A stretch of DNA of 64,000 nucleotides, taken from assembly GCA_963682025.1 (NCBI GenBank), contig OY821517.1, forward strand, positions 104,968,472 to 105,032,471, given 5' to 3'. Source of the DNA: Cordilura impudica (taxonomy: Eukaryota; Arthropoda; Insecta; Diptera; Scathophagidae). The translations under genes and the position numbers were made by a program. Below the pieces are notes generated by a model that was not told the origin of the DNA, ran no database searches, and saw nothing but the letters and a program-made list of their open reading frames with translations. Shown here piece after piece: positions 11,729 to 62,541 of this stretch (position 1 is the first letter of the stretch; every line of letters begins with the position of its first letter).

Positions 11729-11737
11729 GTTTATGTG
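11729..11737. repeat. Left 9-bp target-site duplication of giant foldback element
   Basis: GTTTATGTG immediately precedes the inverted terminus AAGGGTGTGAAGTTAGC. The same nine bases directly follow the other terminus at 39632-39640. Confidence 0.9.
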
Positions 11738-12061
11738 AAGGGTGTGAAGTTAGCGACGAAAGTTAACTACGTTTTTCAAAAATAACTTAACAGAGGCTGT
11801 TAAATTAACAGAATTTTTGTGAAGATAACTACGAAAGTTAAATACGTTCTACAAAATGTTATGTATATAGAGAATGTTGAACTAATATGTTTGTATGTTT
11901 TTTTTGAAGATAACTACGGAAATTAAATACGTTTTACAAATAAGTTGAGGGATTTAGCCATATAGTGGCATTTGTAGATTAGGACTAGTAAATTATAAAA
12001 AAAATAAAAATAAATTGAATTTTACGAAAAGATCAAAGTACGAAATATCATTTTAAAAAAA
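11738..12061 (+). repeat. Left terminal (non-satellite) segment of the giant foldback element
   Basis: It begins AAGGGTGTGAAGTTAGCGAC. A motif of the type GAAGNTANCTACGRAARTTAA recurs at 11746, 11821 and 11906, so the tip is itself built from short degenerate repeats. From about 11950 the sequence is a strongly diverged 179-bp unit (GATTTAGCCATATAG and GATTAGGACTAGTAAATT where the array has GGCTTAGCC and GATTAGGACTACTAGTTT). It then grades into the homogeneous array. Confidence 0.8.
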
Positions 12062-15000
12062 CATATGAAATTTTTTTATACTACTATATGAGAAAATGAA
12101 ATGGCAAAATTGGACGAAACGGTTCGAGGAGGGGCTTAGCCTTATATGACAGTTTATAGATTAGGACTACTAGTTTAGAAAAAGAGCAAAAATATGAAAA
12201 TCGTTAGTAACGTTTTTAAGAAATATCGTTTTAAAAAAAACATATGAAATTTTTTTATACTACTATATGAGAAAATTAAATGGCAAAATTGGACCAAATG
12301 GTTCGAGGAGGGGCTTAGCCCCATATGACAGTTTATAGATTAGGACTACTAGTTTAGAAAAAGAGCAAAAATATGAAAATCGTTAGTAACGTTTTTAAGA
12401 AATATCGTTTTAAAAAAAACATATGAAATTTTTTTATACTACTATATGAGAAAATTAAATGGCAAAATTGGACCAAATGGTTCGAGGAGGGGCTTAGCCC
12501 TATATGACAGTTTATAGATTAGGACTACTAGTTTACAAAAAGAGCAAAAATATGAAAATCGTTAGTAACGTTTTTAAGAAATATCGTTTTAAAAAAAACA
12601 TATGAAATTTTTTTATACTACTATATGAGAAAATTAAATGGCAAAATTGGACCAAATGGTTCGAGGAGGGGCTTAGCCCTATATGACAGTTTATAGATTA
12701 GGACTACTAGTTTAGAAAAAGAGCAAAAATATGAAAATCGTTAGTAACGTTTTTAAGAAATATCGTTTTAAAAAAAACATATGAAATTTTTTTATACTAC
12801 TATATGAGAAAATTAAATGGCAAAATTGGACGAAACGGTTCGAGGAGGGGCTTAGCCTTATATGACAGTTTATAGATTAGGACTACTAGTTTAGAAAAAG
12901 AGCAAAAATATGAAAATCGTTAGTAACGTTTTTAAGAAATATCGTTTTAAAAAAAACATATGAAATTTTTTTATACTACTATATGAGAAAATGAAATGGC
13001 AAAATTGGACGAAACGGTTCGAGGAGGGGCTTAGCCTTATATGACAGTTTATAGATTAGGACTACTAGTTTAGAAAAAGAGCAAAAATATGAAAATCGTT
13101 AGTAACGTTTTTAAGAAATATCGTTTTAAAAAAAACATATGAAATTTTTTTATACTACTATATGAGAAAATTAAATGGCAAAATTGGACCAAATGGTTCG
13201 AGGAGGGGCTTAGCCCTATATGACAGTTTATAGATTAGGACTACTAGTTTAGAAAAAGAGCAAAAATATGAAAATCGTTAGTAACGTTTTTAAGAAATAT
13301 CGTTTTAAAAAAAACATATGAAATTTTTTTATACTACTATATGAGAAAATGAAATGGCAAAATTGGACGAAACGGTTCGAGGAGGGGCTTAGCCTTATAT
13401 GACAGTTTATAGATTAGGACTACTAGTTTAGAAAAAGAGCAAAAATATGAAAATCGTTAGTAACGTTTTTAAGAAATATCGTTTTAAAAAAAACATATGA
13501 AATTTTTTTATACTACTATATGAGAAAATTAAATGGCAAAATTGGACCAAATGGTTCGAGGAGGGGCTTAGCCCTATATGACAGTTTATAGATTAGGACT
13601 ACTAGTTTAGAAAAAGAGCAAAAATATGAAAATCGTTAGTAACGTTTTTAAGAAATATCGTTTTAAAAAAAACATATGAAATTTTTTTATACTACTATAT
13701 GAGAAAATTAAATGGCAAAATTGGACGAAACGGTTCGAGGAGGGGCCTAGCCTTATATGACAGTTTATAGATTAGGACTACTAGTTTAGAAAAAGAGCAA
13801 AAATATGAAAATCGTTAGTAACGTTTTTAAGAAATATCGTTTTAAAAAAAACATATGAAATTTTTTTATACTACTATATGAGAAAATGAAATGGCAAAAT
13901 TGGACGAAACGGTTCGAGGAGGGGCTTAGCCTTATATGACAGTTTATAGATTAGGACTACTAGTTTAGAAAAAGAGCAAAAATATGAAAATCGTTAGTAA
14001 CGTTTTTAAGAAATATCGTTTTAAAAAAAACATATGAAATTTTTTTATACTACTATATGAGAAAATTAAATGGCAAAATTGGACCAAATGGTTCGAGGAG
14101 GGGCTTAGCCCTATATGACAGTTTATAGATGAGGACTACTAGTTTAGAAAAAGAGCAAAAATATGAAAATCGTTAGTAACGTTTTTAAGAAATATCGTTT
14201 TAAAAAAAACATATGAAATTTTTTTATACTACTATATGAGAAAATGAAATGGCAAAATTGGACGAAACGGTTCGAGGAGGGGCTTAGCCTTATATGACAG
14301 TTTATAGATTAGGACTACTAGTTTAGAAAAAGAGCAAAAATATGAAAATCGTTAGTAACGTTTTTAAGAAATATCGTTTTAAAAAAAACATATGAAATTT
14401 TTTTATACTACTATATGAGAAAATGAAATGGCAAAATTGGACGAAACGGTTCGAGGAGGGGCTTAGCCTTATATGACAGTTTATAGATTAGGACTACTAG
14501 TTTAGAAAAAGAGCAAAAATATGAAAATCGTTAGTATCGTTTTTAAGAAATATCGTTTTAAAAAAAACATATGAAATTTTTTTATACTACTATATGAGAA
14601 AATTAAATGGCAAAATTGGACCAAATGGTTCGAGGAGGGGCTTAGCCTTATATGACAGTTTATAGATTAGGACTACTAGTTTAGAAAAAGAGCAAAAATA
14701 TGAAAATCGTTAGTAACGTTTTTAAGAAATATCGTTTTAAAAAAAACATATGAAATTTTTTTATACTACTATATGAGAAAATTAAATGGCAAAATTGGAC
14801 CAAATGGTTCGAGGAGGGGCTTAGCCCTATATGACAGTTTATAGATTAGGACTACTAGTTTACAAAAAGAGCAAAAATATGAAAATCGTTAGTAACGTTT
14901 TTAAGAAATATCGTTTTAAAAAAAACATATGAAATTTTTTTATACTACTATATGAGAAAATTAAATGGCAAAATTGGACCAAATGGTTCGAGGAGGGGCT

Positions 15001-18000
15001 TAGCCCTATATGACAGTTTATAGATTAGGACTACTAGTTTAGAAAAAGAGCAAAAATATGAAAATCGTTAGTAACGTTTTTAAGAAATATCGTTTTAAAA
15101 AAAACATATGAAATTTTTTTATACTACTATATGAGAAAATGAAATGGCAAAATTGGACGAAACGGTTCGAGGAGGGGCTTAGCCTTATATGACAGTTTAT
15201 AGATTAGGACTACTAGTTTAGAAAAAGAGCAAAAATATGAAAATCGTTAGTAACGTTTTTAAGAAATATCGTTTTAAAAAAAACATATGAAATTTTTTTA
15301 TACTACTATATGAGAAAATGAAATGGCAAAATTGGACGAAACGGTTCGAGGAGGGGCTTAGCCTTATATGACAGTTTATAGATTAGGACTACTAGTTTAG
15401 AAAAAGAGCAAAAATATGAAAATCGTTAGTAACGTTTTTAAGAAATATCGTTTTAAAAAAAACATATGAAATTTTTTTATACTACTATATGAGAAAATTA
15501 AATGGCAAAATTGGACCAAATGGTTCGAGGAGGGGCTTAGCCCTATATGACAGTTTATAGATTAGGACTACTAGTTTAGAAAAAGAGCAAAAATATGAAA
15601 ATCGTTAGTAACGTTTTTAAGAAATATCGTTTTAAAAAAAACATATGAAATTTTTTTATACTACTATATGAGAAAATGAAATGGCAAAATTGGACGAAAC
15701 GGTTCGAGGAGGGGCTTAGCCTTATATGACAGTTTATAGATTAGGACTACTAGTTTAGAAAAAGAGCAAAAATATGAAAATCGTTAGTAACGTTTTTAAG
15801 AAATATCGTTTTAAAAAAAACATATGAAATTTTTTTATACTACTATATGAGAAAATTAAATGGCAAAATTGGACCAAATGGTTCGAGGAGGGGCTTAGCC
15901 CTATATGACAGTTTATAGATTAGGACTACTAGTTTAGAAAAAGAGCAAAAATATGAAAATCGTTAGTAACGTTTTTAAGAAATATCGTTTTAAAAAAAAC
16001 ATATGAAATTTTTTTATACTACTATATGAGAAAATTAAATGGCAAAATTGGACGAAACGGTTCGAGGAGGGGCCTAGCCTTATATGACAGTTTATAGATT
16101 AGGACTACTAGTTTACAAAAAGAGCAAAAATATGAAAATCGTTAGTAACGTTTTTAAGAAATATCGTTTTAAAAAAAACATATGAAATTTTTTTATACTA
16201 CTATATGAGAAAATGAAATGGCAAAATTGGACGAAACGGTTCGAGGAGGGGCTTAGCCTTATATGACAGTTTATAGATTAGGACTACTAGTTTAGAAAAA
16301 GAGCAAAAATATGAAAATCGTTAGTAACGTTTTTAAGAAATATCGTTTTAAAAAAAACATATGAAATTTTTTTATACTACTATATGAGAAAATTAAATGG
16401 CAAAATTGGACCAAATGGTTCGAGGAGGGGCTTAGCCCTATATGACAGTTTATAGATGAGGACTACTAGTTTAGAAAAAGAGCAAAAATATGAAAATCGT
16501 TAGTAACGTTTTTAAGAAATATCGTTTTAAAAAAAACATATGAAATTTTTTTATACTACTATATGAGAAAATGAAATGGCAAAATTGGACGAAACGGTTC
16601 GAGGAGGGGCTTAGCCTTATATGACAGTTTATAGATTAGGACTACTAGTTTAGAAAAAGAGCAAAAATATGAAAATCGTTAGTAACGTTTTTAAGAAATA
16701 TCGTTTTAAAAAAAACATATGAAATTTTTTTATACTACTATATGAGAAAATGAAATGGCAAAATTGGACGAAACGGTTCGAGGAGGGGCTTAGCCTTATA
16801 TGACAGTTTATAGATTAGGACTACTAGTTTAGAAAAAGAGCAAAAATATGAAAATCGTTAGTATCGTTTTTAAGAAATATCGTTTTAAAAAAAACATATG
16901 AAATTTTTTTATACTACTATATGAGAAAATTAAATGGCAAAATTGGACCAAATGGTTCGAGGAGGGGCTTAGCCTTATATGACAGTTTATAGATTAGGAC
17001 TACTAGTTTAGAAAAAGAGCAAAAATATGAAAATCGTTAGTAACGTTTTTAAGAAATATCGTTTTAAAAAAAACATATGAAATTTTTTTATACTACTATA
17101 TGAGAAAATTAAATGGCAAAATTGGACCAAATGGTTCGAGGAGGGGCTTAGCCCTATATGACAGTTTATAGATTAGGACTACTAGTTTACAAAAAGAGCA
17201 AAAATATGAAAATCGTTAGTAACGTTTTTAAGAAATATCGTTTTAAAAAAAACATATGAAATTTTTTTATACTACTATATGAGAAAATGAAATGGCAAAA
17301 TTGGACGAAACGGTTCGAGGAGGGGCTTAGCCTTATATGACAGTTTATAGATTAGGACTACTAGTTTAGAAAAAGAGCAAAAATATGAAAATCGTTAGTA
17401 ACGTTTTTAAGAAATATCGTTTTAAAAAAAACATATGAAATTTTTTTATACTACTATATGAGAAAATTAAATGGCAAAATTGGACCAAATGGTTCGAGGA
17501 GGGGCTTAGCCCTATATGACAGTTTATAGATTAGGACTACTAGTTTAGAAAAAGAGCAAAAATATGAAAATCGTTAGTAACGTTTTTAAGAAATATCGTT
17601 TTAAAAAAAACATATGAAATTTTTTTATACTACTATATGAGAAAATTAAATGGCAAAATTGGACCAAATGGTTCGAGGAGGGGCTTAGCCCTATATGACA
17701 GTTTATAGATTAGGACTACTAGTTTAGAAAAAGAGCAAAAATATGAAAATCGTTAGTAACGTTTTTAAGAAATATCGTTTTAAAAAAAACATATGAAATT
17801 TTTTTATACTACTATATGAGAAAATGAAATGGCAAAATTGGACGAAACGGTTCGAGGAGGGGCTTAGCCTTATATGACAGTTTATAGATTAGGACTACTA
17901 GTTTAGAAAAAGAGCAAAAATATGAAAATCGTTAGTAACGTTTTTAAGAAATATCGTTTTAAAAAAAACATATGAAATTTTTTTATACTACTATATGAGA

Positions 18001-20215
18001 AAATTAAATGGCAAAATTGGACCAAATGGTTCGAGGAGGGGCTTAGCCCTATATGACAGTTTATAGATTAGGACTACTAGTTTACAAAAAGAGCAAAAAT
18101 ATGAAAATCGTTAGTAACGTTTTTAAGAAATATCGTTTTAAAAAAAACATATGAAATTTTTTTATACTACTATATGAGAAAATTAAATGGCAAAATTGGA
18201 CCAAATGGTTCGAGGAGGGGCTTAGCCCTATATGACAGTTTATAGATTAGGACTACTAGTTTACAAAAAGAGCAAAAATATGAAAATCGTTAGTAACGTT
18301 TTTAAGAAATATCGTTTTAAAAAAAACATATGAAATTTTTTTATACTACTATATGAGAAAATTAAATGGCAAAATTGGACCAAATGGTTCGAGGAGGGGC
18401 TTAGCCCTATATGACAGTTTATAGATTAGGACTACTAGTTTACAAAAAGAGCAAAAATATGAAAATCGTTAGTAACGTTTTTAAGAAATATCGTTTTAAA
18501 AAAAACATATGAAATTTTTTTATACTACTATATGAGAAAATTAAATGGCAAAATTGGACCAAATGGTTCGAGGAGGGGCTTAGCCCTATATGACAGTTTA
18601 TAGATTAGGACTACTAGTTTACAAAAAGAGCAAAAATATGAAAATCGTTAGTAACGTTTTTAAGAAATATCGTTTTAAAAAAAACATATGAAATTTTTTT
18701 ATACTACTATATGAGAAAATTAAATGGCAAAATTGGACCAAATGGTTCGAGGAGGGGCTTAGCCCTATATGACAGTTTATAGATTAGGACTACTAGTTTA
18801 GAAAAAGAGCAAAAATATGAAAATCGTTAGTAACGTTTTTAAGAAATATCGTTTTAAAAAAAACATATGAAATTTTTTTATACTACTATATGAGAAAATG
18901 AAATGGCAAAATTGGACGAAACGGTTCGAGGAGGGGCTTAGCCTTATATGACAGTTTATAGATTAGGACTACTAGTTTAGAAAAAGAGCAAAAATATGAA
19001 AATCGTTAGTAACGTTTTTAAGAAATATCGTTTTAAAAAAAACATATGAAATTTTTTTATACTACTATATGAGAAAATTAAATGGCAAAATTGGACCAAA
19101 TGGTTCGAGGAGGGGCTTAGCCCTATATGACAGTTTATAGATTAGGACTACTAGTTTAGAAAAAGAGCAAAAATATGAAAATCGTTAGTAACGTTTTTAA
19201 GAAATATCGTTTTAAAAAAAACATATGAAATTTTTTTATACTACTATATGAGAAAATGAAATGGCAAAATTGGACGAAACGGTTCGAGGAGGGGCTTAGC
19301 CTTATATGACAGTTTATAGATTAGGACTACTAGTTTAGAAAAAGAGCAAAAATATGAAAATCGTTAGTAACGTTTTTAAGAAATATCGTTTTAAAAAAAA
19401 CATATGAAATTTTTTTATACTACTATATGAGAAAATGAAATGGCAAAATTGGACGAAACGGTTCGAGGAGGGGCTTAGCCTTATATGACAGTTTATAGAT
19501 TAGGACTACTAGTTTAGAAAAAGAGCAAAAATATGAAAATCGTTAGTATCGTTTTTAAGAAATATCGTTTTAAAAAAAACATATGAAATTTTTTTATACT
19601 ACTATATGAGAAAATTAAATGGCAAAATTGGACCAAATGGTTCGAGGAGGGGCTTAGCCCTATATGACAGTTTATAGATTAGGACTACTAGTTTAGAAAA
19701 AGAGCAAAAATATGAAAATCGTTAGTAACGTTTTTAAGAAATATCGTTTTAAAAAAAACATATGAAATTTTTTTATACTACTATATGAGAAAATGAAATG
19801 GCAAAATTGGACGAAACGGTTCGAGGAGGGGCTTAGCCTTATATGACAGTTTATAGATTAGGACTACTAGTTTAGAAAAAGAGCAAAAATATGAAAATCG
19901 TTAGTAACGTTTTTAAGAAATATCGTTTTAAAAAAAACATATGAAATTTTTTTATACTACTATATGAGAAAATTAAATGGCAAAATTGGACCAATTGGTT
20001 CGAGGAGGGGCTTAGCCCTATATGACAGTTTATAGATTAGGACTACTAGTTTAGAAAAAGAGCAAAAATATGAAAATCGTTAGTAACGTTTTTAAGAAAT
20101 ATCGTTTTAAAAAAAACATATGAAATTTTTTTATACTACTATATGAGAAAATGAAATGGCAAAATTGGACCAAATGGTTCGAGGAGGGGCTTAGCCCTAT
20201 ATGACAGTTTATAGA
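12062..20215 (+). repeat. Left arm: tandem 179-bp satellite, about 45 units
   Basis: The period is exactly 179 bp, measured at the GGTTCGAGG block (12121, 12300, 12479 and so on). Every unit carries ACTAGT and CATATG. Two unit types alternate irregularly. One has ATGAAATGG, GACGAAACGG and CCTTATATG; the other has TTAAATGG, GACCAAATGG and CCCTATATG. Rarer variants are TTTACAAAAAG for TTTAGAAAAAG, TAGATGAGG for TAGATTAGG, and GTATCG for GTAACG. No coding potential. Similarity between units is very high. Confidence 0.95.
12750..17250 (+). repeat. 13-unit higher-order repeat (2327 bp) in the left arm, two copies
   Basis: Private variants recur exactly 2327 bp apart, which is 13 units of 179. GGCCTAG is at 13744 and 16071; the TAGATGAGG variant is at 14131 and 16458; GTATCG is near 14532 and 16861. 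The order of the two unit types over twelve successive units from 12828 is repeated from 15155. Outer limits are approximate. Confidence 0.85.
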
Positions 20216-20250
20216 TTAAACAGTTTATAGATTAAACTGTCATATAGGGC
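20191..20250. repeat. Centre of the giant palindrome
   Basis: The left arm ends CCCTATATGACAGTTTA and the right arm starts TAAACTGTCATATAGGG, separated by about 21 bp. The spacer contains a second copy of ACAGTTTATAGATTA (20206-20220 and again 20220-20234), so the turn-around point carries a short direct repeat at the junction. This is the only place where unit orientation changes. Confidence 0.9.
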
Positions 20251-23200
20251 TAAGCCCCTCCTCGAACCATTTGGTCCAATTTTGCCATTTAATTTTCTCA
20301 TATAGTAGTATAAAAAAATTTCATATGTTTTTTTTAAAACGATATTTCTTAAAAACGTTACTAACGATTTTCATATTTTTGCTCTTTTTCTAAACTAGTA
20401 GTCCTAATCTATAAACTGTCATATAAGGCTAAGCCCCTCCTTGAACCGTTTCGTCCAATTTTGCCATTTCATTTTCTCATATAGTAGTATAAAAAAATTT
20501 CATATGTTTTTTTTAAAACGATATTTCTTAAAAACGTTACTAACGATTTTCATATTTTTGCTCTTTTTCTAAACTAGTAGTCCTAATCTATAAACTGTCA
20601 TATAGGGCTAAGCCCCTCCTCGAACCATTTGGTCCAATTTTGCCATTTAATTTTCTCATATAGTAGTATAAAAAAATTTCATATGTTTTTTTTAAAACGA
20701 TATTTCTTAAAAACGTTACTAACGATTTTCATATTTTTGCTCTTTTTCTAAACTAGTAGTCCTAATCTATAAACTGTCATATAAGGCTAAGCCCCTCCTC
20801 GAACCGTTTCGTCCAATTTTGCCATTTCATTTTCTCATTTAGTAGTATAAAAAAATTTCATATGTTTTTTTTAAAACGATATTTCTTAAAAACGTTACTA
20901 ACGATTTTCATATTTTTGCTCTTTTTGTAAACTAGTAGTCCTAATCTATAAACTGTCATATAGGGCTAAGCCCCTCCTCGAACCATTTGGTCCAATTTTG
21001 CCATTTAATTTTCTCATATAGTAGTATAAAAAAATTTCATATGTTTTTTTTAAAACGATATTTCTTAAAAACGTTACTAACGATTTTCATATTTTTGCTC
21101 TTTTTCTAAACTAGTAGTCCTAATCTATAAACTGTCATATAGGGCTAAGCCCCTCCTCGAACCATTTGGTCCAATTTTGCCATTTAATTTTCTCATATAG
21201 TAGTATAAAAAAATTTCATATGTTTTTTTTAAAACGATATTTCTTAAAAACGTTACTAACGATTTTCATATTTTTGCTCTTTTTCTAAACTAGTAGTCCT
21301 AATCTATAAACTGTCATATAGGGCTAAGCCCCTCCTCGAACCATTTGGTCCAATTTTGCCATTTAATTTTCTCATATAGTAGTATAAAAAAATTTCATAT
21401 GTTTTTTTTAAAACGATATTTCTTAAAAACGTTACTAACGATTTTCATATTTTTGCTCTTTTTCTAAACTAGTAGTCCTAATCTATAAACTGTCATATAA
21501 GGCTAAGCCCCTCCTCGAACCGTTTCGTCCAATTTTGCCATTTCATTTTCTCATTTAGTAGTATAAAAAAATTTCATATGTTTTTTTTAAAACGATATTT
21601 CTTAAAAACGTTACTAACGATTTTCATATTTTTGCTCTTTTTCTAAACTAGTAGTCCTAATCTATAAACTGTCATATAAGGCTAAGCCCCTCCTCGAACC
21701 GTTTCGTCCAATTTTGCCATTTCATTTTCTCATATAGTAGTATAAAAAAATTTCATATGTTTTTTTTAAAACGATATTTCTTAAAAACGTTACTAACGAT
21801 TTTCATATTTTTGCTCTTTTTCTAAACTAGTAGTCCTAATCTATAAACTGTCATATAGGGCTAAGCCCCTCCTCGAACCATTTGGTCCAATTTTGCCATT
21901 TAATTTTCTCATATAGTAGTATAAAAAAATTTCATATGTTTTTTTTAAAACGATATTTCTTAAAAACGTTACTAACGATTTTCATATTTTTGCTCTTTTT
22001 GTAAACTAGTAGTCCTAATCTATAAACTGTCATATAGGGCTAAGCCCCTCCTCGAACCATTTGGTCCAATTTTGCCATTTAATTTTCTCATATAGTAGTA
22101 TAAAAAAATTTCATATGTTTTTTTTAAAACGATATTTCTTAAAAACGTTACTAACGATTTTCATATTTTTGCTCTTTTTCTAAACTAGTAGTCCTAATCT
22201 ATAAACTGTCATATAAGGCTAAGCCCCTCCTTGAACCGTTTCGTCCAATTTTGCCATTTCATTTTCTCATATAGTAGTATAAAAAAATTTCATATGTTTT
22301 TTTTAAAACGATATTTCTTAAAAACGTTACTAACGATTTTCATATTTTTGCTCTTTTTCTAAACTAGTAGTCCTAATCTATAAACTGTCATATAGGGCTA
22401 AGCCCCTCCTCGAACCATTTGGTCCAATTTTGCCATTTAATTTTCTCATATAGTAGTATAAAAAAATTTCATATGTTTTTTTTAAAACGATATTTCTTAA
22501 AAACGTTACTAACGATTTTCATATTTTTGCTCTTTTTCTAAACTAGTAGTCCTAATCTATAAACTGTCATATAAGGCTAAGCCCCTCCTCGAACCGTTTC
22601 GTCCAATTTTGCCATTTCATTTTCTCATATAGTAGTATAAAAAAATTTCATATGTTTTTTTTAAAACGATATTTCTTAAAAACGTTACTAACGATTTTCA
22701 TATGTTTGCTCTTTTTCTAAACTAGTAGTCCTAATCTATAAACTGTCATATAAGGCTAAGCCCCTCCTCGAACCGTTTCGTCCAATTTTGCCATTTCATT
22801 TTCTCATTTAGTAGTATAAAAAAATTTCATATGTTTTTTTTAAAACGATATTTCTTAAAAACGTTACTAACGATTTTCATATTTTTGCTCTTTTTGTAAA
22901 CTAGTAGTCCTAATCTATAAACTGTCATATAGGGCTAAGCCCCTCCTCGAACCATTTGGTCCAATTTTGCCATTTAATTTTCTCATATAGTAGTATAAAA
23001 AAATTTCATATGTTTTTTTTAAAACGATATTTCTTAAAAACGTTACTAACGATTTTCATATTTTTGCTCTTTTTCTAAACTAGTAGTCCTAATCTATAAA
23101 CTGTCATATAGGGCTAAGCCCCTCCTCGAACCATTTGGTCCAATTTTGCCATTTAATTTTCTCATATAGTAGTATAAAAAAATTTCATATGTTTTTTTTA

Positions 23201-26200: not shown

Positions 26201-29200
26201 TTTCTCATATAGTAGTATAAAAAAATTTCATATGTTTTTTTTAAAACGATATTTCTTAAAAACGTTACTAACGATTTTCATATTTTTGCTCTTTTTCTAA
26301 ACTAGTAGTCCTAATCTATAAACTGTCATATAGGGATAAGCTCCTCCTCGAACCATTTGGTCCAATTTTGCCATTTAATTTTCTCATATAGTAGTATAAA
26401 AAAATTTCATATGTTTTTTTTAAAACGATATTTCTTAAAAACGTTACTAACGATTTTCATATTTTTGCTCTTTTTCTAAACTAGTAGTCCTAATCTATAA
26501 ACTGTCATATAAGGCTAAGCCCCTCCTCGAACCGTTTCGTCCAATTTTGCCATTTCATTTTCTCATATAGTAGTATAAAAAAATTTCATATGTTTTTTTT
26601 AAAACGATATTTCTTAAAAACGTTACTAACGATTTTCATATTTTTGCTCTTTTTCTAAACTAGTAGTCCTAATCTATAAACTGTCATATAGGGCTAAGCC
26701 CCTCCTCGAACCATTTGGTCCAATTTTGCCATTTAATTTTCTCATATAGTAGTATAAAAAAATTTCATATGTTTTTTTTAAAACGATATTTCTTAAAAAC
26801 GTTACTAACGATTTTCATATTTTTGCTCTTTTTCTAAACTAGTAGTCCTAATCTATAAACTGTCATATAAGGCTAAGCCCCTCCTCGAACCGTTTCGTCC
26901 AATTTTGCCATTTCATTTTCTCATATAGTAGTATAAAAAAATTTCATATGTTTTTTTTAAAACGATATTTCTTAAAAACGTTACTAACGATTTTCATATG
27001 TTTGCTCTTTTTCTAAACTAGTAGTCCTAATCTATAAACTGTCATATAAGGCTAAGCCCCTCCTCGAACCGTTTCGTCCAATTTTGCCATTTCATTTTCT
27101 CATTTAGTAGTATAAAAAAATTTCATATGTTTTTTTTAAAACGATATTTCTTAAAAACGTTACTAACGATTTTCATATTTTTGCTCTTTTTGTAAACTAG
27201 TAGTCCTAATCTATAAACTGTCATATAGGGCTAAGCCCCTCCTCGAACCATTTGGTCCAATTTTGCCATTTAATTTTCTCATATAGTAGTATAAAAAAAT
27301 TTCATATGTTTTTTTTAAAACGATATTTCTTAAAAACGTTACTAACGATTTTCATATTTTTGCTCTTTTTCTAAACTAGTAGTCCTAATCTATAAACTGT
27401 CATATAGGGCTAAGCCCCTCCTCGAACCATTTGGTCCAATTTTGCCATTTAATTTTCTCATATAGTAGTATAAAAAAATTTCATATGTTTTTTTTAAAAC
27501 GATATTTCTTAAAAACGTTACTAACGATTTTCATATTTTTGCTCTTTTTCTAAACTAGTAGTCCTAATCTATAAACTGTCATATAAGGCTAAGCCCCTCC
27601 TCGAACCGTTTCGTCCAATTTTGCCATTTCATTTTCTCATTTAGTAGTATAAAAAAATTTCATATGTTTTTTTTAAAACGATATTTCTTAAAAACGTTAC
27701 TAACGATTTTCATATTTTTGCTCTTTTTCTAAACTAGTAGTCCTAATCTATAAACTGTCATATAAGGCTAAGCCCCTCCTCGAACCGTTTCGTCCAATTT
27801 TGCCATTTCATTTTCTCATATAGTAGTATAAAAAAATTTCATATGTTTTTTTTAAAACGATATTTCTTAAAAACGTTACTAACGATTTTCATATTTTTGC
27901 TCTTTTTCTAAACTAGTAGTCCTAATCTATAAACTGTCATATAGGGCTAAGCCCCTCCTCGAACCATTTGGTCCAATTTTGCCATTTAATTTTCTCATAT
28001 AGTAGTATAAAAAAATTTCATATGTTTTTTTTAAAACGATATTTCTTAAAAACGTTACTAACGATTTTCATATTTTTGCTCTTTTTCTAAACTAGTAGTC
28101 CTAATCTATAAACTGTCATATAGGGCTAAGCTCCTCCTCGAACCATTTGGTCCAATTTTGCCATTTAATTTTCTCATATAGTAGTATAAAAAAATTTCAT
28201 ATGTTTTTTTTAAAACGATATTTCTTAAAAACGTTACTAACGATTTTCATATTTTTGCTCTTTTTCTAAACTAGTAGTCCTAATCTATAAACTGTCATAT
28301 AAGGCTAAGCCCCTCCTCGAACCGTTTCGTCCAATTTTGCCATTTCATTTTCTCATTTAGTAGTATAAAAAAATTTCATATGTTTTTTTTAAAACGATAT
28401 TTCTTAAAAACGTTACTAACGATTTTCATATTTTTGCTCTTTTTCTAAACTAGTAGTCCTAATCTATAAACTGTCATATAAGGCTAAGCCCCTCCTCGAA
28501 CCGTTTCGTCCAATTTTGCCATTTCATTTTCTCATATAGTAGTATAAAAAAATTTCATATGTTTTTTTTAAAACGATATTTCTTAAAAACGTTACTAACG
28601 ATTTTCATATTTTTGCTCTTTTTCTAAACTAGTAGTCCTAATCTATAAACTGTCATATAAGGCTAAGCCCCTCCTCGAACCGTTTCGTCCAATTTTGCCA
28701 TTTCATTTTCTCATATAGTAGTATAAAAAAATTTCATATGTTTTTTTTAAAACGATATTTCTTAAAAACGTTACTAACGATTTTCATATTTTTACTCTTT
28801 TTCTAAACTAGTAGTCCTAATCTATAAACTGTCATATAGGGCTAAGCCCCTCCTCGAACCATTTGGTCCAATTTTGCCATTTAATTTTCTCATATAGTAG
28901 TATAAAAAAATTTCATATGTTTTTTTTAAAACGATATTTCTTAAAAACGTTACTAACGATTTTCATATTTTTGCTCTTTTTGTAAACTAGTAGTCGTAAT
29001 CTACAAACTCTCATATAGGGCTAAGCCCCTCCTCGAACCATTTGGTCCAATTTTGCCATTTAATTTTCTCATATAGTAGTATAAAAAAATTTCATATGTT
29101 TTTTTTAAAACGATATTTCTTAAAAACGTTACTAACGATTTTCATATTTTTGCTCTTTTTCTAAACTAGTAGTCCTAATCTATAAACTGTCATATAAGGC

Positions 29201-32200
29201 TAAGCCCCTCCTCGAACCGTTTCGTCCAATTTTGCCATTTCATTTTCTCATTTAGTAGTATAAAAAAATTTCATATGTTTTTTTTAAAACGATATTTCTT
29301 AAAAACGTTACTAACGATTTTCATATTTTTGCTCTTTTTGTAAACTAGTAGTCCTAATCTATAAACTGTCATATAAGGCTAAGCCCCTCCTCGAACCATT
29401 TGGTCCAATTTTGCCATTTAATTTTCTCATATAGTAGTATAAAAAAATTTCATATGTTTTTTTTAAAACGATATTTCTTAAAAACGTTACTAACGATTTT
29501 CATATTTTTGCTCTTTTTCTAAACTAGTAGTCCTAATCTATAAACTGTCATATAAGGCTAAGCCCCTCCTCGAACCGTTTCGTCCAATTTTGCCATTTCA
29601 TTTTCTCATATAGTAGTATAAAAAAATTTCATATGTTTTTTTTAAAACGATATTTCTTAAAAACGTTACTAACGATTTTCATATTTTTGCTCTTTTTCTA
29701 AACTAGTAGTCCTAATCTATAAACTGTCATATAGGGCTAAGCCCCTCCTCGAACCATTTGGTCCAATTTTGCCATTTAATTTTCTCATATAGTAGTATAA
29801 AAAAATTTCATATGTTTTTTTTAAAACGATATTTCTTAAAAACGTTACTAACGATTTTCATATTTTTGCTCTTTTTCTAAACTAGTAGTCCTAATCTATA
29901 AACTGTCATATAGGGCTAAGCCCCTCCTCGAACCATTTGGTCCAATTTTGCCATTTAATTTTCTCATATAGTAGTATAAAAAAATTTCATATGTTTTTTT
30001 TAAAACGATATTTCTTAAAAACGTTACTAACGATTTTCATATTTTTGCTCTTTTTCTAAACTAGTAGTCCTAATCTATAAACTGTCATATAAGGCTAAGC
30101 CCCTCCTCGAACCGTTTCGTCCAATTTTGCCATTTCATTTTCTCATATAGTAGTATAAAAAAATTTCATATGTTTTTTTTAAAACGATATTTCTTAAAAA
30201 CGTTACTAACGATTTTCATATTTTTGCTCTTTTTCTAAACTAGTAGTCCTAATCTATAAACTGTCATATAGGGCTAAGCCCCTCCTCGAACCATTTGGTC
30301 CAATTTTGCCATTTAATTTTCTCATATAGTAGTATAAAAAAATTTCATATGTTTTTTTTAAAACGATATTTCTTAAAAACGTTACTAACGATTTTCATAT
30401 TTTTGCTCTTTTTCTAAACTAGTAGTCCTAATCTATAAACTGTCATATAGGGCTAAGCTCCTCCTCGAACCATTTGGTCCAATTTTGCCATTTAATTTTC
30501 TCATATAGTAGTATAAAAAAATTTCATATGTTTTTTTTAAAACGATATTTCTTAAAAACGTTACTAACGATTTTCATATTTTTGCTCTTTTTCTAAACTA
30601 GTAGTCCTAATCTATAAACTGTCATATAAGGCTAAGCCCCTCCTCGAACCGTTTCGTCCAATTTTGCCATTTCATTTTCTCATATAGTAGTATAAAAAAA
30701 TTTCATATGTTTTTTTTAAAACGATATTTCTTAAAAACGTTACTAACGATTTTCATATTTTTACTCTTTTTCTAAACTAGTAGTCCTAATCTATAAACTG
30801 TCATATAGGGCTAAGCCCCTCCTCGAACCATTTGGTCCAATTTTGCCATTTAATTTTCTCATATAGTAGTATAAAAAAATTTCATATGTTTTTTTTAAAA
30901 CGATATTTCTTAAAAACGTTACTAACGATTTTCATATTTTTGCTCTTTTTGTAAACTAGTAGTCCTAATCTACAAACTCTCATATAGGGCTAAGCCCCTC
31001 CTCGAACCATTTGGTCCAATTTTGCCATTTAATTTTCTCATATAGTAGTATAAAAAAATTTCATATGTTTTTTTTAAAACGATATTTCTTAAAAACGTTA
31101 CTAACGATTTTCATATTTTTGCTCTTTTTCTAAACTAGTAGTCCTAATCTATAAACTGTCATATAAGGCTAAGCCCCTCCTCGAACCGTTTCGTCCAATT
31201 TTGCCATTTCATTTTCTCATTTAGTAGTATAAAAAAATTTCATATGTTTTTTTTAAAACGATATTTCTTAAAAACGTTACTAACGATTTTCATATTTTTG
31301 CTCTTTTTGTAAACTAGTAGTCCTAATCTATAAACTGTCATATAAGGCTAAGCCCCTCCTCGAACCATTTGGTCCAATTTTGCCATTTAATTTTCTCATA
31401 TAGTAGTATAAAAAAATTTCATATGTTTTTTTTAAAACGATATTTCTTAAAAACGTTACTAACGATTTTCATATTTTTGCTCTTTTTCTAAACTAGTAGT
31501 CCTAATCTATAAACTGTCATATAAGGCTAAGCCCCTCCTCGAACCGTTTCGTCCAATTTTGCCATTTCATTTTCTCATATAGTAGTATAAAAAAATTTCA
31601 TATGTTTTTTTTAAAACGATATTTCTTAAAAACGTTACTAACGATTTTCATATTTTTGCTCTTTTTCTAAACTAGTAGTCCTAATCTATAAACTGTCATA
31701 TAGGGCTAAGCCCCTCCTCGAACCATTTGGTCCAATTTTGCCATTTAATTTTCTCATATAGTAGTATAAAAAAATTTCATATGTTTTTTTTAAAACGACA
31801 TTTCTTAAAAACGTTACTAACGATTTTCATATTTTTGCTCTTTTTCTAAACTAGTAGTCCTAATCTATAAACTGTCATATAGGGCTAAGCCCCTCCTCGA
31901 ACCATTTGGTCCAATTTTGCCATTTAATTTTCTCATATAGTAGTATAAAAAAATTTCATATGTTTTTTTTAAAACGATATTTCTTAAAAACGATACTAAC
32001 GATTTTCATATTTTTGCTCTTTTTCTAAACTAGTAGTCCTAATCTATAAACTGTCATATAAGGCTAAGCCCCTCCTCGAACCGTTTCGTCCAATTTTGCC
32101 ATTTCATTTTCTCATATAGTAGTATAAAAAAATTTCATATGTTTTTTTTAAAACGATATTTCTTAAAAACGTTACTAACGATTTTCATATTTTTGCTCTT

Positions 32201-35200
32201 TTTCTAAACTAGTAGTCCTAATCTATAAACTGTCATATAAGGCTAAGCCCCTCCTCGAACCGTTTCGTCCAATTTTGCCATTTCATTTTCTCATATAGTA
32301 GTATAAAAAAATTTCATATGTTTTTTTTAAAACGATATTTCTTAAAAACGTTACTAACGATTTTCATATTTTTGCTCTTTTTCTAAACTAGTAGTCCTCA
32401 TCTATAAACTGTCATATAGGGCTAAGCCCCTCCTCGAACCATTTGGTCCAATTTTGCCATTTAATTTTCTCATATAGTAGTATAAAAAAATTTCATATGT
32501 TTTTTTTAAAACGATATTTCTTAAAAACGTTACTAACGATTTTCATATTTTTGCTCTTTTTCTAAACTAGTAGTCCTAATCTATAAACTGTCATATAAGG
32601 CTAAGCCCCTCCTCGAACCGTTTCGTCCAATTTTGCCATTTCATTTTCTCATATAGTAGTATAAAAAAATTTCATATGTTTTTTTTAAAACGATATTTCT
32701 TAAAAACGTTACTAACGATTTTCATATTTTTGCTCTTTTTCTAAACTAGTAGTCCTAATCTATAAACTGTCATATAGGGATAAGCTCCTCCTCGAACCAT
32801 TTGGTCCAATTTTGCCATTTAATTTTCTCATATAGTAGTATAAAAAAATTTCATATGTTTTTTTTAAAACGATATTTCTTAAAAACGTTACTAACGATTT
32901 TCATATTTTTGCTCTTTTTCTAAACTAGTAGTCCTAATCTATAAACTGTCATATAAGGCTAAGCCCCTCCTCGAACCGTTTCGTCCAATTTTGCCATTTC
33001 ATTTTCTCATATAGTAGTATAAAAAAATTTCATATGTTTTTTTTAAAACGATATTTCTTAAAAACGTTACTAACGATTTTCATATTTTTGCTCTTTTTCT
33101 AAACTAGTAGTCCTAATCTATAAACTGTCATATAGGGCTAAGCCCCTCCTCGAACCATTTGGTCCAATTTTGCCATTTAATTTTCTCATATAGTAGTATA
33201 AAAAAATTTCATATGTTTTTTTTAAAACGATATTTCTTAAAAACGTTACTAACGATTTTCATATTTTTGCTCTTTTTCTAAACTAGTAGTCCTAATCTAT
33301 AAACTGTCATATAAGGCTAAGCCCCTCCTCGAACCGTTTCGTCCAATTTTGCCATTTCATTTTCTCATATAGTAGTATAAAAAAATTTCATATGTTTTTT
33401 TTAAAACGATATTTCTTAAAAACGTTACTAACGATTTTCATATGTTTGCTCTTTTTCTAAACTAGTAGTCCTAATCTATAAACTGTCATATAAGGCTAAG
33501 CCCCTCCTCGAACCGTTTCGTCCAATTTTGCCATTTCATTTTCTCATTTAGTAGTATAAAAAAATTTCATATGTTTTTTTTAAAACGATATTTCTTAAAA
33601 ACGTTACTAACGATTTTCATATTTTTGCTCTTTTTGTAAACTAGTAGTCCTAATCTATAAACTGTCATATAGGGCTAAGCCCCTCCTCGAACCATTTGGT
33701 CCAATTTTGCCATTTAATTTTCTCATATAGTAGTATAAAAAAATTTCATATGTTTTTTTTAAAACGATATTTCTTAAAAACGTTACTAACGATTTTCATA
33801 TTTTTGCTCTTTTTCTAAACTAGTAGTCCTAATCTATAAACTGTCATATAGGGCTAAGCCCCTCCTCGAACCATTTGGTCCAATTTTGCCATTTAATTTT
33901 CTCATATAGTAGTATAAAAAAATTTCATATGTTTTTTTTAAAACGATATTTCTTAAAAACGTTACTAACGATTTTCATATTTTTGCTCTTTTTCTAAACT
34001 AGTAGTCCTAATCTATAAACTGTCATATAAGGCTAAGCCCCTCCTCGAACCGTTTCGTCCAATTTTGCCATTTCATTTTCTCATTTAGTAGTATAAAAAA
34101 ATTTCATATGTTTTTTTTAAAACGATATTTCTTAAAAACGTTACTAACGATTTTCATATTTTTGCTCTTTTTCTAAACTAGTAGTCCTAATCTATAAACT
34201 GTCATATAAGGCTAAGCCCCTCCTCGAACCGTTTCGTCCAATTTTGCCATTTCATTTTCTCATATAGTAGTATAAAAAAATTTCATATGTTTTTTTTAAA
34301 ACGATATTTCTTAAAAACGTTACTAACGATTTTCATATTTTTGCTCTTTTTCTAAACTAGTAGTCCTAATCTATAAACTGTCATATAGGGCTAAGCCCCT
34401 CCTCGAACCATTTGGTCCAATTTTGCCATTTAATTTTCTCATATAGTAGTATAAAAAAATTTCATATGTTTTTTTTAAAACGATATTTCTTAAAAACGTT
34501 ACTAACGATTTTCATATTTTTGCTCTTTTTCTAAACTAGTAGTCCTAATCTATAAACTGTCATATAGGGCTAAGCTCCTCCTCGAACCATTTGGTCCAAT
34601 TTTGCCATTTAATTTTCTCATATAGTAGTATAAAAAAATTTCATATGTTTTTTTTAAAACGATATTTCTTAAAAACGTTACTAACGATTTTCATATTTTT
34701 GCTCTTTTTCTAAACTAGTAGTCCTAATCTATAAACTGTCATATAAGGCTAAGCCCCTCCTCGAACCGTTTCGTCCAATTTTGCCATTTCATTTTCTCAT
34801 TTAGTAGTATAAAAAAATTTCATATGTTTTTTTTAAAACGATATTTCTTAAAAACGTTACTAACGATTTTCATATTTTTGCTCTTTTTCTAAACTAGTAG
34901 TCCTAATCTATAAACTGTCATATAAGGCTAAGCCCCTCCTCGAACCGTTTCGTCCAATTTTGCCATTTCATTTTCTCATATAGTAGTATAAAAAAATTTC
35001 ATATGTTTTTTTTAAAACGATATTTCTTAAAAACGTTACTAACGATTTTCATATTTTTGCTCTTTTTCTAAACTAGTAGTCCTAATCTATAAACTGTCAT
35101 ATAAGGCTAAGCCCCTCCTCGAACCGTTTCGTCCAATTTTGCCATTTCATTTTCTCATATAGTAGTATAAAAAAATTTCATATGTTTTTTTTAAAACGAT

Positions 35201-38200
35201 ATTTCTTAAAAACGTTACTAACGATTTTCATATTTTTACTCTTTTTCTAAACTAGTAGTCCTAATCTATAAACTGTCATATAGGGCTAAGCCCCTCCTCG
35301 AACCATTTGGTCCAATTTTGCCATTTAATTTTCTCATATAGTAGTATAAAAAAATTTCATATGTTTTTTTTAAAACGATATTTCTTAAAAACGTTACTAA
35401 CGATTTTCATATTTTTGCTCTTTTTGTAAACTAGTAGTCGTAATCTACAAACTCTCATATAGGGCTAAGCCCCTCCTCGAACCATTTGGTCCAATTTTGC
35501 CATTTAATTTTCTCATATAGTAGTATAAAAAAATTTCATATGTTTTTTTTAAAACGATATTTCTTAAAAACGTTACTAACGATTTTCATATTTTTGCTCT
35601 TTTTCTAAACTAGTAGTCCTAATCTATAAACTGTCATATAAGGCTAAGCCCCTCCTCGAACCGTTTCGTCCAATTTTGCCATTTCATTTTCTCATTTAGT
35701 AGTATAAAAAAATTTCATATGTTTTTTTTAAAACGATATTTCTTAAAAACGTTACTAACGATTTTCATATTTTTGCTCTTTTTGTAAACTAGTAGTCCTA
35801 ATCTATAAACTGTCATATAAGGCTAAGCCCCTCCTCGAACCATTTGGTCCAATTTTGCCATTTAATTTTCTCATATAGTAGTATAAAAAAATTTCATATG
35901 TTTTTTTTAAAACGATATTTCTTAAAAACGTTACTAACGATTTTCATATTTTTGCTCTTTTTCTAAACTAGTAGTCCTAATCTATAAACTGTCATATAAG
36001 GCTAAGCCCCTCCTCGAACCGTTTCGTCCAATTTTGCCATTTCATTTTCTCATATAGTAGTATAAAAAAATTTCATATGTTTTTTTTAAAACGATATTTC
36101 TTAAAAACGTTACTAACGATTTTCATATTTTTGCTCTTTTTCTAAACTAGTAGTCCTAATCTATAAACTGTCATATAGGGCTAAGCCCCTCCTCGAACCA
36201 TTTGGTCCAATTTTGCCATTTAATTTTCTCATATAGTAGTATAAAAAAATTTCATATGTTTTTTTTAAAACGATATTTCTTAAAAACGTTACTAACGATT
36301 TTCATATTTTTGCTCTTTTTCTAAACTAGTAGTCCTAATCTATAAACTGTCATATAGGGCTAAGCCCCTCCTCGAACCATTTGGTCCAATTTTGCCATTT
36401 AATTTTCTCATATAGTAGTATAAAAAAATTTCATATGTTTTTTTTAAAACGATATTTCTTAAAAACGATACTAACGATTTTCATATTTTTGCTCTTTTTC
36501 TAAACTAGTAGTCCTAATCTATAAACTGTCATATAAGGCTAAGCCCCTCCTCGAACCGTTTCGTCCAATTTTGCCATTTCATTTTCTCATATAGTAGTAT
36601 AAAAAAATTTCATATGTTTTTTTTAAAACGATATTTCTTAAAAACGTTACTAACGATTTTCATATTTTTGCTCTTTTTCTAAACTAGTAGTCCTAATCTA
36701 TAAACTGTCATATAAGGCTAAGCCCCTCCTCGAACCGTTTCGTCCAATTTTGCCATTTCATTTTCTCATATAGTAGTATAAAAAAATTTCATATGTTTTT
36801 TTTAAAACGATATTTCTTAAAAACGTTACTAACGATTTTCATATTTTTGCTCTTTTTCTAAACCAGTAGTCCTCATCTATAAACTGTCATATAGGGCTAA
36901 GCCCCTCCTCGAACCATTTGGTCCAATTTTGCCATTTAATTTTCTCATATAGTAGTATAAAAAAATTTCATATGTTTTTTTTAAAACGATATTTCTTAAA
37001 AACGTTACTAACGATTTTCATATTTTTGCTCTTTTTCTAAACTAGTAGTCCTAATCTATAAACTGTCATATAAGGCTAAGCCCCTCCTCGAACCGTTTCG
37101 TCCAATTTTGCCATTTCATTTTCTCATATAGTAGTATAAAAAAATTTCATATGTTTTTTTTAAAACGATATTTCTTAAAAACGTTACTAACGATTTTCAT
37201 ATTTTTGCTCTTTTTCTAAACTAGTAGTCCTAATCTATAAACTGTCATATAAGGCTAGGCCCCTCCTCGAACCGTTTCGTCCAATTTTGCCATTTAATTT
37301 TCTCATATAGTAGTATAAAAAAATTTCATATGTTTTTTTTAAAACGATATTTCTTAAAAACGTTACTAACGATTTTCATATTTTTGCTCTTTTTCTAAAC
37401 TAGTAGTCCTAATCTATAAACTGTCATATAGGGCTAAGCCCCTCCTCGAACCATTTGGTCCAATTTTGCCATTTAATTTTCTCATATAGTAGTATAAAAA
37501 AATTTCATATGTTTTTTTTAAAACGATATTTCTTAAAAACGTTACTAACGATTTTCATATTTTTGCTCTTTTTCTAAACTAGTAGTCCTAATCTATAAAC
37601 TGTCATATAAGGCTAAGCCCCTCCTCGAACCGTTTCGTCCAATTTTGCCATTTCATTTTCTCATATAGTAGTATAAAAAAATTTCATATGTTTTTTTTAA
37701 AACGATATTTCTTAAAAACGTTACTAACGATTTTCATATTTTTGCTCTTTTTCTAAACTAGTAGTCCTAATCTATAAACTGTCATATAAGGCTAGGCCCC
37801 TCCTCGAACCGTTTCGTCCAATTTTGCCATTTAATTTTCTCATATAGTAGTATAAAAAAATTTCATATGTTTTTTTTAAAACGATATTTCTTAAAAACGT
37901 TACTAACGATTTTCATATTTTTGCTCTTTTTCTAAACTAGTAGTCCTAATCTATAAACTGTCATATAGGGCTAAGCCCCTCCTCGAACCATTTGGTCCAA
38001 TTTTGCCATTTAATTTTCTCATATAGTAGTATAAAAAAATTTCATATGTTTTTTTTAAAACGATATTTCTTAAAAACGTTACTAACGATTTTCATATTTT
38101 TGCTCTTTTTCTAAACTAGTAGTCCTAATCTATAAACTGTCATATAAGGCTAAGCCCCTCCTCGAACCGTTTCGTCCAATTTTGCCATTTCATTTTCTCA

Positions 38201-39303
38201 TATAGTAGTATAAAAAAATTTCATATGTTTTTTTTAAAACGATATTTCTTAAAAACGTTACTAACGATTTTCATATTTTTGCTCTTTTTCTAAACTAGTA
38301 GTCCTAATCTATAAACTGTCATATAAGGCTAAGCCCCTCCTCGAACCGTTTCGTCCAATTTTGCCATTTAATTTTTTCATATAGTAGTATAAAAAAATTT
38401 CATATGTTTTTTTTAAAACGATATTTCTTAAAAACGTTACTAACGATTTTCATATTTTTGCTCTTTTTCTAAACTAGTAGTCCTAATCTATAAACTGTCA
38501 TATAGGGCTAAGCCCCTCCTCGAACCATTTGGTCCAATTTTGCCATTTAATTTTCTCATATAGTAGTATAAAAAAATTTCATATGTTTTTTTTTAAACGA
38601 TATTTCTTAAAAACGTTACTAACGATTTTCATATTTTTGCTCTTTTTGTAAACTAGTAGTCCTAATCTATAAACTGTCATATAGGGCTAAGCCCCTCCTC
38701 GAACCATTTGGTCCAATTTTGCCATTTAATTTTCTCATATAGTAGTATAAAAAAATTTCATATGTTTTTTTTAAAACGATATTTCTTAAAAACGTTACTA
38801 ACGATTTTCATATTTTTGCTCTTTTTGTAAACTAGTAGTCCTAATCTATAAACTGTCATATAGGGCTAAGCCCCTCCTCGAACCATTTGGTCCAATTTTG
38901 CCATTTAATTTTCTCATATAGTAGTATAAAAAAATTTCATATGTTTTTTTTAAAACGATATTTCTTAAAAACGTTACTAACGATTTTCATATTTTTGCTC
39001 TTTTTCTAAACTAGTAGTCCTAATCTATAAACTGTCATATGGGGCTAAGCCCCTCCTCGAACCATTTGGTCCAATTTTGCCATTTAATTTTCTCATATAG
39101 TAGTATAAAAAAATTTCATATGTTTTTTTTAAAACGATATTTCTTAAAAACGTTACTAACGATTTTCATATTTTTGCTCTTTTTCTAAACTAGTAGTCCT
39201 AATCTATAAACTGTCATATAAGGCTAAGCCCCTCCTCGAACCGTTTCGTCCAATTTTGCCATTTCATTTTCTCATATAGTAGTATAAAAAAATTTCATAT
39301 GTT
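20226..39303 (-). repeat. Right arm: tandem 179-bp satellite in inverted orientation, about 106 units
   Basis: It holds the same two unit types as the left arm, reverse-complemented, in about 19.1 kb. Additional private variants include TTTCTCATTTAGTAG, GCTCCTCCTCG, CATATGTTTGCTC and CTACAAACTCTC. The arm is about 2.3 times longer than the left arm, as expected if it grew by local amplification after the foldback formed. Confidence 0.95.
23000..35500 (-). repeat. 36-unit higher-order repeat (6444 bp) in the right arm
   Basis: Private variants recur exactly 6444 bp apart, which is 36 units of 179. TCCTCATC is at 25951 and 32395; AAAAACGATA at 25542 and 31986; the TCGTAATCTACAAAC variant at 28994 and 35438. 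GCTCCTCC at about 24013, 26340 and 28130 recurs near 30456, 32785 and 34575. The shift does not hold for the variant near 22702, so the duplication starts after that. AAAAACGATA also recurs at 36461, 4475 bp (25 units) further on, indicating a later partial duplication. Confidence 0.85.
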
Positions 39304-39631
39304 TTTTTAAAATGATATTTCGTACTTTGATCTTTTCGTAAAATTCAATTTATTTTTATTTTTTTTATAATTTACTAGTCCTAATCTACAAATGCCACTA
39401 TATGGCTAAATCCCTCAACTTATTTGTAAAACGTATTTAATTTCCGTAGTTATCTTCAAAAAAAACATACAAACATATTAGTTCAACATTTTCTATATAC
39501 ATAACATTTTGTAGAACGTATTTAACTTTCGTAGTTATCTTCACAAAAATTCTGTTAATTTAACAGCCTCTGTTAAGTTTTTAACATTTTTGAAAAACGT
39601 AGTTAACTTTCGTCGCTAACTTCACACCCTT
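39304..39631 (-). repeat. Right terminal segment of the giant foldback element
   Basis: Reverse complement of 11738-12061, with a small indel (about 6 bp) next to CAAAAAT and a few substitutions. The outermost 40 or so bases are identical to the left tip in inverted orientation. Confidence 0.88.
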
Positions 39632-39640
39632 GTTTATGTG
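39632..39640. repeat. Right 9-bp target-site duplication of giant foldback element
   Basis: GTTTATGTG, identical to 11729-11737, lies immediately outside the inverted terminus. Confidence 0.9.
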
Positions 39641-61506: not shown

Positions 61507-61555
61507 TAACAAAAAAAATCCGGCTGTCAAACAAAAACAAATTACCAACATGTTA

Positions 61556-62538: not shown

Positions 62539-62541
62539 TTA

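Follow-up and report, generated by a model that had tools for sequence, protein, structure and literature searches.

The 64,000-bp stretch of Cordilura impudica contig OY821517.1 analysed here (the window) contains a 27,894-bp element at 11738-39631 (the window element), which is composed of 179-bp AT-rich units between two inverted tips and is flanked by a perfect 9-bp direct repeat. We regard it as likely that this is a non-autonomous foldback DNA transposon of about 28 kb, the arms of which swelled into satellite-length arrays within its own lineage. Throughout, C1 to C5 denote contigs (the window lies on C1) and L-numbers denote other loci that were read.

Anatomy of the window element

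The original prediction, made from the letters of the window, placed inverted tips and a flanking duplication at both outer ends of the array, and these positions hold. The 20-bp tip AAGGGTGTGAAGTTAGCGAC is found at 11738 on the plus strand and at 39612-39631 on the minus strand, and the perfect 9-bp direct repeat GTTTATGTG at 11729 and 39632; one further copy of GTTTATGTG is present in the window, at 56413. The tips had also been described as identical and as non-satellite, each of which stands in part. They are inverted and near-identical rather than identical (97.7% over 311 bp, with one 6-bp gap and one substitution), and only their outer part is non-satellite, the inner part (~11947-12061) being a divergent fragment of the unit with 73% identity to it. 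In its outermost 209-215 bp, each tip displays subrepeats of its own. Because the next ~115 bp of the tip is a divergent unit fragment, the array is akin to the element's own subterminal sequence.

About 152 copies of the unit were predicted and 151 full units were counted. They do not form a single tandem run: the array consists of two inverted arms, with 46 unit anchors on the plus strand and 107 on the minus strand. Units are spaced at exactly 179 bp throughout and comprise 24 types with a mean pairwise identity of 98.3%. The arms meet at ~20207/20237 around a 29-nt loop, a spacer being absent, and they align from the tips inward with 98.4% identity over 8,476 bp. Long terminal inverted repeats and arms made of tandem repeats, the hallmarks of a foldback element, are thus both present. 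The layout is as follows.

11729-11737, plus strand: left 9-bp target-site duplication GTTTATGTG (sequence match)
11738-11946, plus strand: left tip, unique part with internal GAAGATAACTACGAAAGTTAAATACG-like subrepeats
11947-12061, plus strand: divergent fragment of the array unit (73% identity) that each of the two tips contains
12062-20207, plus strand: left arm, ~46 units of 179 bp in plus orientation
12062-14925, plus strand: outer 16 left-arm units, with a variant order that aligns (gapped) to the outer right-arm units (coordinates computed from unit offsets)
20208-20236, no strand: 29-nt loop between the arms, spacer absent
20237-39301, minus strand: right arm, ~107 units of 179 bp in minus orientation
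23550-29993, minus strand: inner copy of a 36-unit block duplicated in tandem in the right arm (coordinates computed from unit index)
29994-36437, minus strand: outer copy of that 36-unit block (coordinates likewise from unit index)
36438-39301, minus strand: outer 16 right-arm units, in-order alignment with the left arm (computed coordinates)
39302-39416, minus strand: inner part of the right tip, a divergent unit fragment
39417-39631, minus strand: unique part of the right tip, exceeding that of the left tip by 6 bp
39632-39640, plus strand: right 9-bp target-site duplication GTTTATGTG (sequence match)

Inverted ends of 14 bp (≤ 2 mismatches, 150-30,000 bp apart) with 9-bp direct repeats next to them were also sought blindly in the window, which gave two matches, the window element and 46644-48010. 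Forty control windows generated from a dinucleotide model gave 0-4 matches (mean 0.8), and therefore the blind scan alone proves nothing; proof of the element comes instead from its long terminal repeats and from the way in which tips pair across the genome. The match at 46644-48010 is a second foldback, with a 9-bp duplication GTAGCTTAG, a perfect end GTGTCTGTGAAGTTGGCATCTC, arms of ~150-bp tandem units and a short spacer. Its end has TGTGAAGTT in common with the window element, together with the following bases with one change.

A dispersed foldback family

The host assembly, which comprises 855 contigs and 1.49 Gb, was searched for exact matches to the 20-bp tip, yielding 297 tips (154 + 143), whereas the reversed control gave 0. 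Positions were obtained for 268 of them by splitting on the preceding base, and inward-facing neighbouring tips less than 40 kb apart were taken as inward pairs. In total, 162 of the placed tips fall into 81 such pairs, as compared to a mean of 22 and a maximum of 35 in 1000 strand shuffles, and other neighbour arrangements within 40 kb occur only 8 times. The remaining 106 placed tips have no exact partner within 40 kb; their partners may have mutated or been lost. Pairs span 294-32,177 bp (median 1,691), 12 of them exceed 10 kb, and the window element is the second longest, behind a pair on C4 (32,177 bp). Both ends and five interior stretches of this C4 element were read and display an A-type array (unit types A to C are described below), three of the five stretches consisting wholly of units and the others for 67% and 87%.

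Target-site duplications were compared in the 42 pairs read at both ends, a set outside which the C3 pairs of 25.3 and 14.4 kb and the C4 pair of 17.6 kb lie. Identical 9-bp duplications flank 38 of the 42, a count in which L022 and L023 go back to one insertion (see below). Among the first 100 places this holds for 33 of 35 pairs (L016 has one base different and L017 a one-base offset), and these 35 carry 33 different duplications; three further large pairs have one perfect duplication and two that match at 8/9, and four more pairs are perfect. An 8/9 match is thereby found in three of the 42, and the 22.7-kb pair on C2, with its 8/9 duplication, has non-unit sequence at its left end. The duplications are AT-rich, and a fixed motif was not seen.

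Other tip-bounded copies with different 9-bp duplications, proposed as a check of the original prediction, are thus present in the same genome. Its central claim, a single insertion of a foldback-type transposon, is supported by the tips, their inward pairing and their duplications, as well as by empty sites for three other elements. The window element belongs to a real, dispersed foldback family.

These empty sites are paralogous: queries made of the joined flanks of L045, L025 and L013 matched uninterrupted junctions, 79-97% identical, in other sequence that was read. The 11.5-kb L045 has matches in L035 and L039, and its alignment with L035 shows one copy of the 9 bp; L025 is matched in L039, and L013 in L001, L016, L026 and the window. 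The match in the window, at 60515-60824, is a paralogous empty site (84.6% identical) for the foldback L013, which is located elsewhere.

The 9-bp duplications of the family have no strong motif and lie within the 8-10 bp, usually 9, of Mutator-like elements (MULE); by this analogy they fit a Mutator-type transposase. They differ from the 8 bp of the hAT superfamily, and membership of that superfamily was rejected, as was membership of the P superfamily that includes Galileo, where duplications are 7-8 bp. A 647-aa frame in L079 was likewise rejected as the family's transposase: it belongs to a hAT element (PF05699) that is nested in the left tip of that foldback, at 190-2922 of L079, where it has produced an 8-bp duplication, GTATATAG. 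Frames in L041, L039 and L082 were considered as a partner and rejected as well, since they look, by eye, like nested retroelements.

Two other groups of Mutator-related sequences were observed. A multicopy Mutator-like element of ~2.37 kb (L052-L056) has copies that are 99.65-99.87% alike and ends unlike those of the window element's family; three of them, L052, L053 and L055, each sit at a different site between perfect 9-bp duplications, while the same script found none for L054. Judged by these sequences, the element was probably active recently. That a Mutator-like element of this genome makes 9-bp duplications too counts in favour of a Mutator-type transposase for the present family. Furthermore, three Mutator-domain matches lie exactly 3,600 bp apart (C1:143015394, 143018994 and 143022594), possibly as a tandem array of a transposase-bearing unit.

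Unit types and the growth of the arrays

Units of the window element were compared with those extracted from 36 other elements. Three unit types, A, B and C, have consensus sequences that are 80-87% alike. The left tip of the window element is 99.5% identical over ~215 bp (gaps uncounted) to the tips of seven elements, L047, L037, L033, L029, L028, L021 and L011, which measure 1.3-12.9 kb, so that together with the window element the lengths differ ~20-fold (1.3-27.9 kb). A units are found in the window element, L037 and L028, and B units in L011, L029, L033, L021 and L047. Since arrays of A or of B stand behind nearly the same tips, different seed units were therefore amplified behind them. 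In the elements with B arrays the first unit starts A-like, with an apparent switch from A to B in both arms. In several spacerless elements the inversion point lies, by eye, at differing places within the unit.

At the finer level of the 24 types distinguished in the window element, 20 (100 of the 151 units) are absent from all 36 other elements, and none at all is shared with L043, the C5 element or L036. In a tree of units, L043 and L036 each form one group, and the window element and L037 are intermixed. Two elements 12 kb apart, L022 (C1:211884814) and L023 (C1:211896835), have flanks that are 100% and 99.75% alike, and their interiors differ only by 354 bp, which is exactly two units; they represent either one insertion that was duplicated or two alleles assembled end to end. 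We read this as growth of the arrays within the lineage of each element, a reading that takes this site and an earlier site of the lineage together.

The two arms of the window element have 7 unit types in common, five of which are found in no other compared element and make up 22 of the 45 left and 37 of the 106 right units. When the order of types was aligned from the tips with gaps allowed, the outer 16 units scored 18.9 (maximum 10.4 in 1000 shuffles) and 20 units scored 19.0 (9.6), while the score for 6 units was reached by one shuffle. At the inner ends of the arms, the alignment of type order was no better than in shuffles. Thirteen types (39 units) are found in the right arm but not in the left, and the 36-unit block of the right arm is present twice. 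The outer parts were thus probably copied from one arm to the other, and the inner parts appear to have grown separately. Such ordering is not claimed for the whole family, because the arms of L037, the C5 element, L043, L045 and L047 share only 1-3 types.

In the mechanism that we propose for this growth within the lineage, a short element with few units per arm would have been inserted by a transposase of the Mutator superfamily acting in trans. Its units would then have multiplied in the lineage by out-of-register exchange or by repair copying between tandem units. Through inverted pairing, one arm may have served as the template for the other, with copying that proceeded inward from the tip, after which the inner arms, mostly the right one, would have grown separately. 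Most of the growth may have followed insertion here or have taken place at a previous site of the same lineage, either of which fits the proposal.

Several observations weigh against this reading. Four of the 24 types (51 of the 151 units) recur among the 36 other elements; these four are common to the sampled C4 element and two of them also occur in L037, so some of the array predates the parting of these copies. The longest exact run of types common to both arms is 4 units, which was reached by 275 of 300 shuffles, and only the tip-anchored gapped alignment of type order is significant. The copy number of the window element rests on one assembly. An empty site of the element, which the original prediction had proposed to look for, was absent from the joined-flank search, the query matching only its own two flanks (with a 9-bp overlap) and a 55-base scrap. 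A search of the genome for the Mutator domain (PF10551) gave 427 candidates, of which 150 were reported, so that at least 150 matches are present; none of the 145 compared with the 268 placed tips lies between listed paired tips, a comparison outside which diverged or unlisted tips and unscored matches fall. No transposase of the family's own was recognised in the frames of 15 larger elements, the cores of six, or L078-L083, and a Pfam search of two frames of L010 gave no match. Because the listed tip pairs enclose no Mutator match, the assignment to Mutator is made from duplication length and architecture only.

The strongest competitor is the claim of the original prediction that the 28-kb array, fully grown at a donor site, was transposed here as one unit, which we consider unlikely. 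The intact tips and perfect 9-bp duplication would suit such a transfer, as would arms that seemingly were already ~16 units long at the time of mutual copying and the existence of a 32.2-kb C4 element with both tips, an 8/9 duplication and types covering 51 of the 151 units. The claim is nevertheless not supported: against it stand the predominance of private types, the near-identical-tip sisters that start at 1.3 kb, and L022 and L023, two copies of one insertion that differ in unit number. Travel of a long array between the window element and L037 was also rejected, the longest run of types common to both being 2 units, no longer than in shuffles (the run test was made against L037, not C4).

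Slightly less probable still is the recombination of extrachromosomal unit circles, copied by rolling circle, into a pre-existing short element. Insertion of a pre-formed block would explain the 36-unit tandem block of the right arm, and the apparent A-to-B switch within the first unit of sister elements fits as well; however, unit types are largely element-specific, and ordinary unequal exchange also produces block duplications. An assembly or library artefact, through chimeric foldback reads or a mis-sized array, is very improbable. Near-perfect palindromes are prone to artefacts and a single assembly was available, yet the flanks of the window element differ, match only themselves and each end at the duplication, the arms are unequal in length, and many loci repeat this anatomy with differing duplications. 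An artefact could alter the copy number, but hardly the anatomy.

The distribution of the unit bears on whether it is a satellite in its own right. A 29-mer of the A unit has 522 exact matches in the assembly, 138 of which are in the window element, and none lies upstream of it on C1 (first 105 Mb). For 260 of the 522 a place in the read loci is known: besides the window element these are L037 and L038 (50), L043 and L044 (15), L028 (1), L082 (1) and the sampled parts of the C4 element (55). Judged by these matches, the unit seems unlike a free satellite spread across the genome, although tip-less arrays may be present among the 262 unplaced copies. The suggestion of the original prediction that satellite DNA may travel as foldback termini is not supported either. 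An ordinary satellite array with boundary features that arose by chance, as 179-bp AT-rich tandem units at 98% identity might suggest, can practically be dismissed: it is contradicted by the genome-wide inward pairing of tips and the inverted arms, and all unit copies placed so far are in read loci of the foldback family.

Other features of the window and related systems

Elsewhere in the window, a frame at 5518-6279 (minus strand) matches the structure of a DNA-mediated transposase (6pqn, E 4.5e-37), which we take to be a Transib. The neighbouring frame at 6456-6920 (minus strand) had no Pfam match and may belong to the same transposase relic. A LINE-like retroelement at 48945-51462 (plus strand) comprises three frames, the middle one with a reverse transcriptase (PF00078). 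Protein neighbours of a LINE and of a transposase relic include sequences of the flies Haematobia and Eurosta, as well as of a moth. At 61068-62542 lies a cluster of inverted and tandem repeats whose longer matches are 83-94% alike; a 7-11-bp duplication with inverted ends was looked for there and not found.

The FB/FB-NOF elements of Drosophila resemble the window element's family in their inverted arms of tandem repeats and 9-bp duplications, but usually measure a few kb and have far shorter arm repeats.

The closest precedent for the kind of process proposed here is Tetris of Drosophila virilis, in which foldback arm repeats became the satellite-like TIR-220 arrays (Dias et al. 2014, PMC4079207), so that satellites are already known to arise within foldbacks. 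Like the present family, Tetris is a non-autonomous foldback with a flanking domain and tandem arm units (~220 bp), it makes 8-10-bp duplications, and its unit has a stretch in common with the flanking domain, as the window unit has with the tip. Arrays of up to 66 copies, fibre-FISH (fluorescence in situ hybridisation) arrays between two flanking domains and a pair of alleles one unit apart are also described (PMC4079207). Tetris differs in that its terminal repeats reach up to 1,735 bp and its long arrays are known from contigs or fibre-FISH (PMC4079207). Compared to that description, the present family has elements of 10-32 kb with both tips and duplications sequenced, many of them spacerless, with largely private units and ordered arms.

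The Mutator-like elements of Aedes aegypti, Muta1 among them, likewise make 8-9-bp duplications that show no evident preference, combine terminal repeats with tandem repeats in subterminal position and have many non-autonomous derivatives; the subterminal repeats of Muta1 are, however, 9-15 bp long, the element measures 3.2 kb and carries a transposase, and satellite-length arms are not described in the part of that paper drawn on here (PMC5225508). The Tm1 Mutator/foldback elements of root-knot nematodes have composite terminal repeats of variable length and mostly 9-bp duplications, and one group of copies carries a transposase, but their arm repeats are ~14 bp and their outer motifs asymmetric (PMC3169594). 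Galileo of Drosophila displays long repetitive terminal repeats, unequal unit numbers between the arms of a single copy and longest-armed copies that are non-autonomous, yet it belongs to the P superfamily and has two or three ~210-bp repeats in terminal repeats of up to ~1.26 kb (PMC3573991). A 2025 review outlines in general terms how arrays expand within small transposons (PMC12628747).

To these systems the present family adds elements of 10-32 kb that are bounded by tips and resolved in sequence (no report of foldbacks of this size was seen among the titles and abstracts of the open-access papers that were searched), the parallel amplification of largely private units behind near-identical tips, and the ordered similarity of the arms of one element. 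The near-perfect palindrome of ~17 kb would be fragile and could drive rearrangement. The beginnings of satellite DNA are usually inferred from old remains; with 81 tip-bounded pairs of 0.3-32 kb in one genome and 38 of 42 duplications intact, the birth and growth of arrays become traceable locus by locus. Private types and ordered arms bring two questions within reach of a test, one on growth in place as against travel of the arrays, the other on copying between inverted arms. As a broader idea, which we consider possible and advance tentatively, foldbacks may be satellite nurseries, in which, after insertion, inverted pairing would allow one arm to be rewritten from the other, from the tip inward, while tandem units increase explosively within the element, so that near-identical sister insertions could independently raise private satellites of up to 32 kb from different seed units and the array would never need to move.

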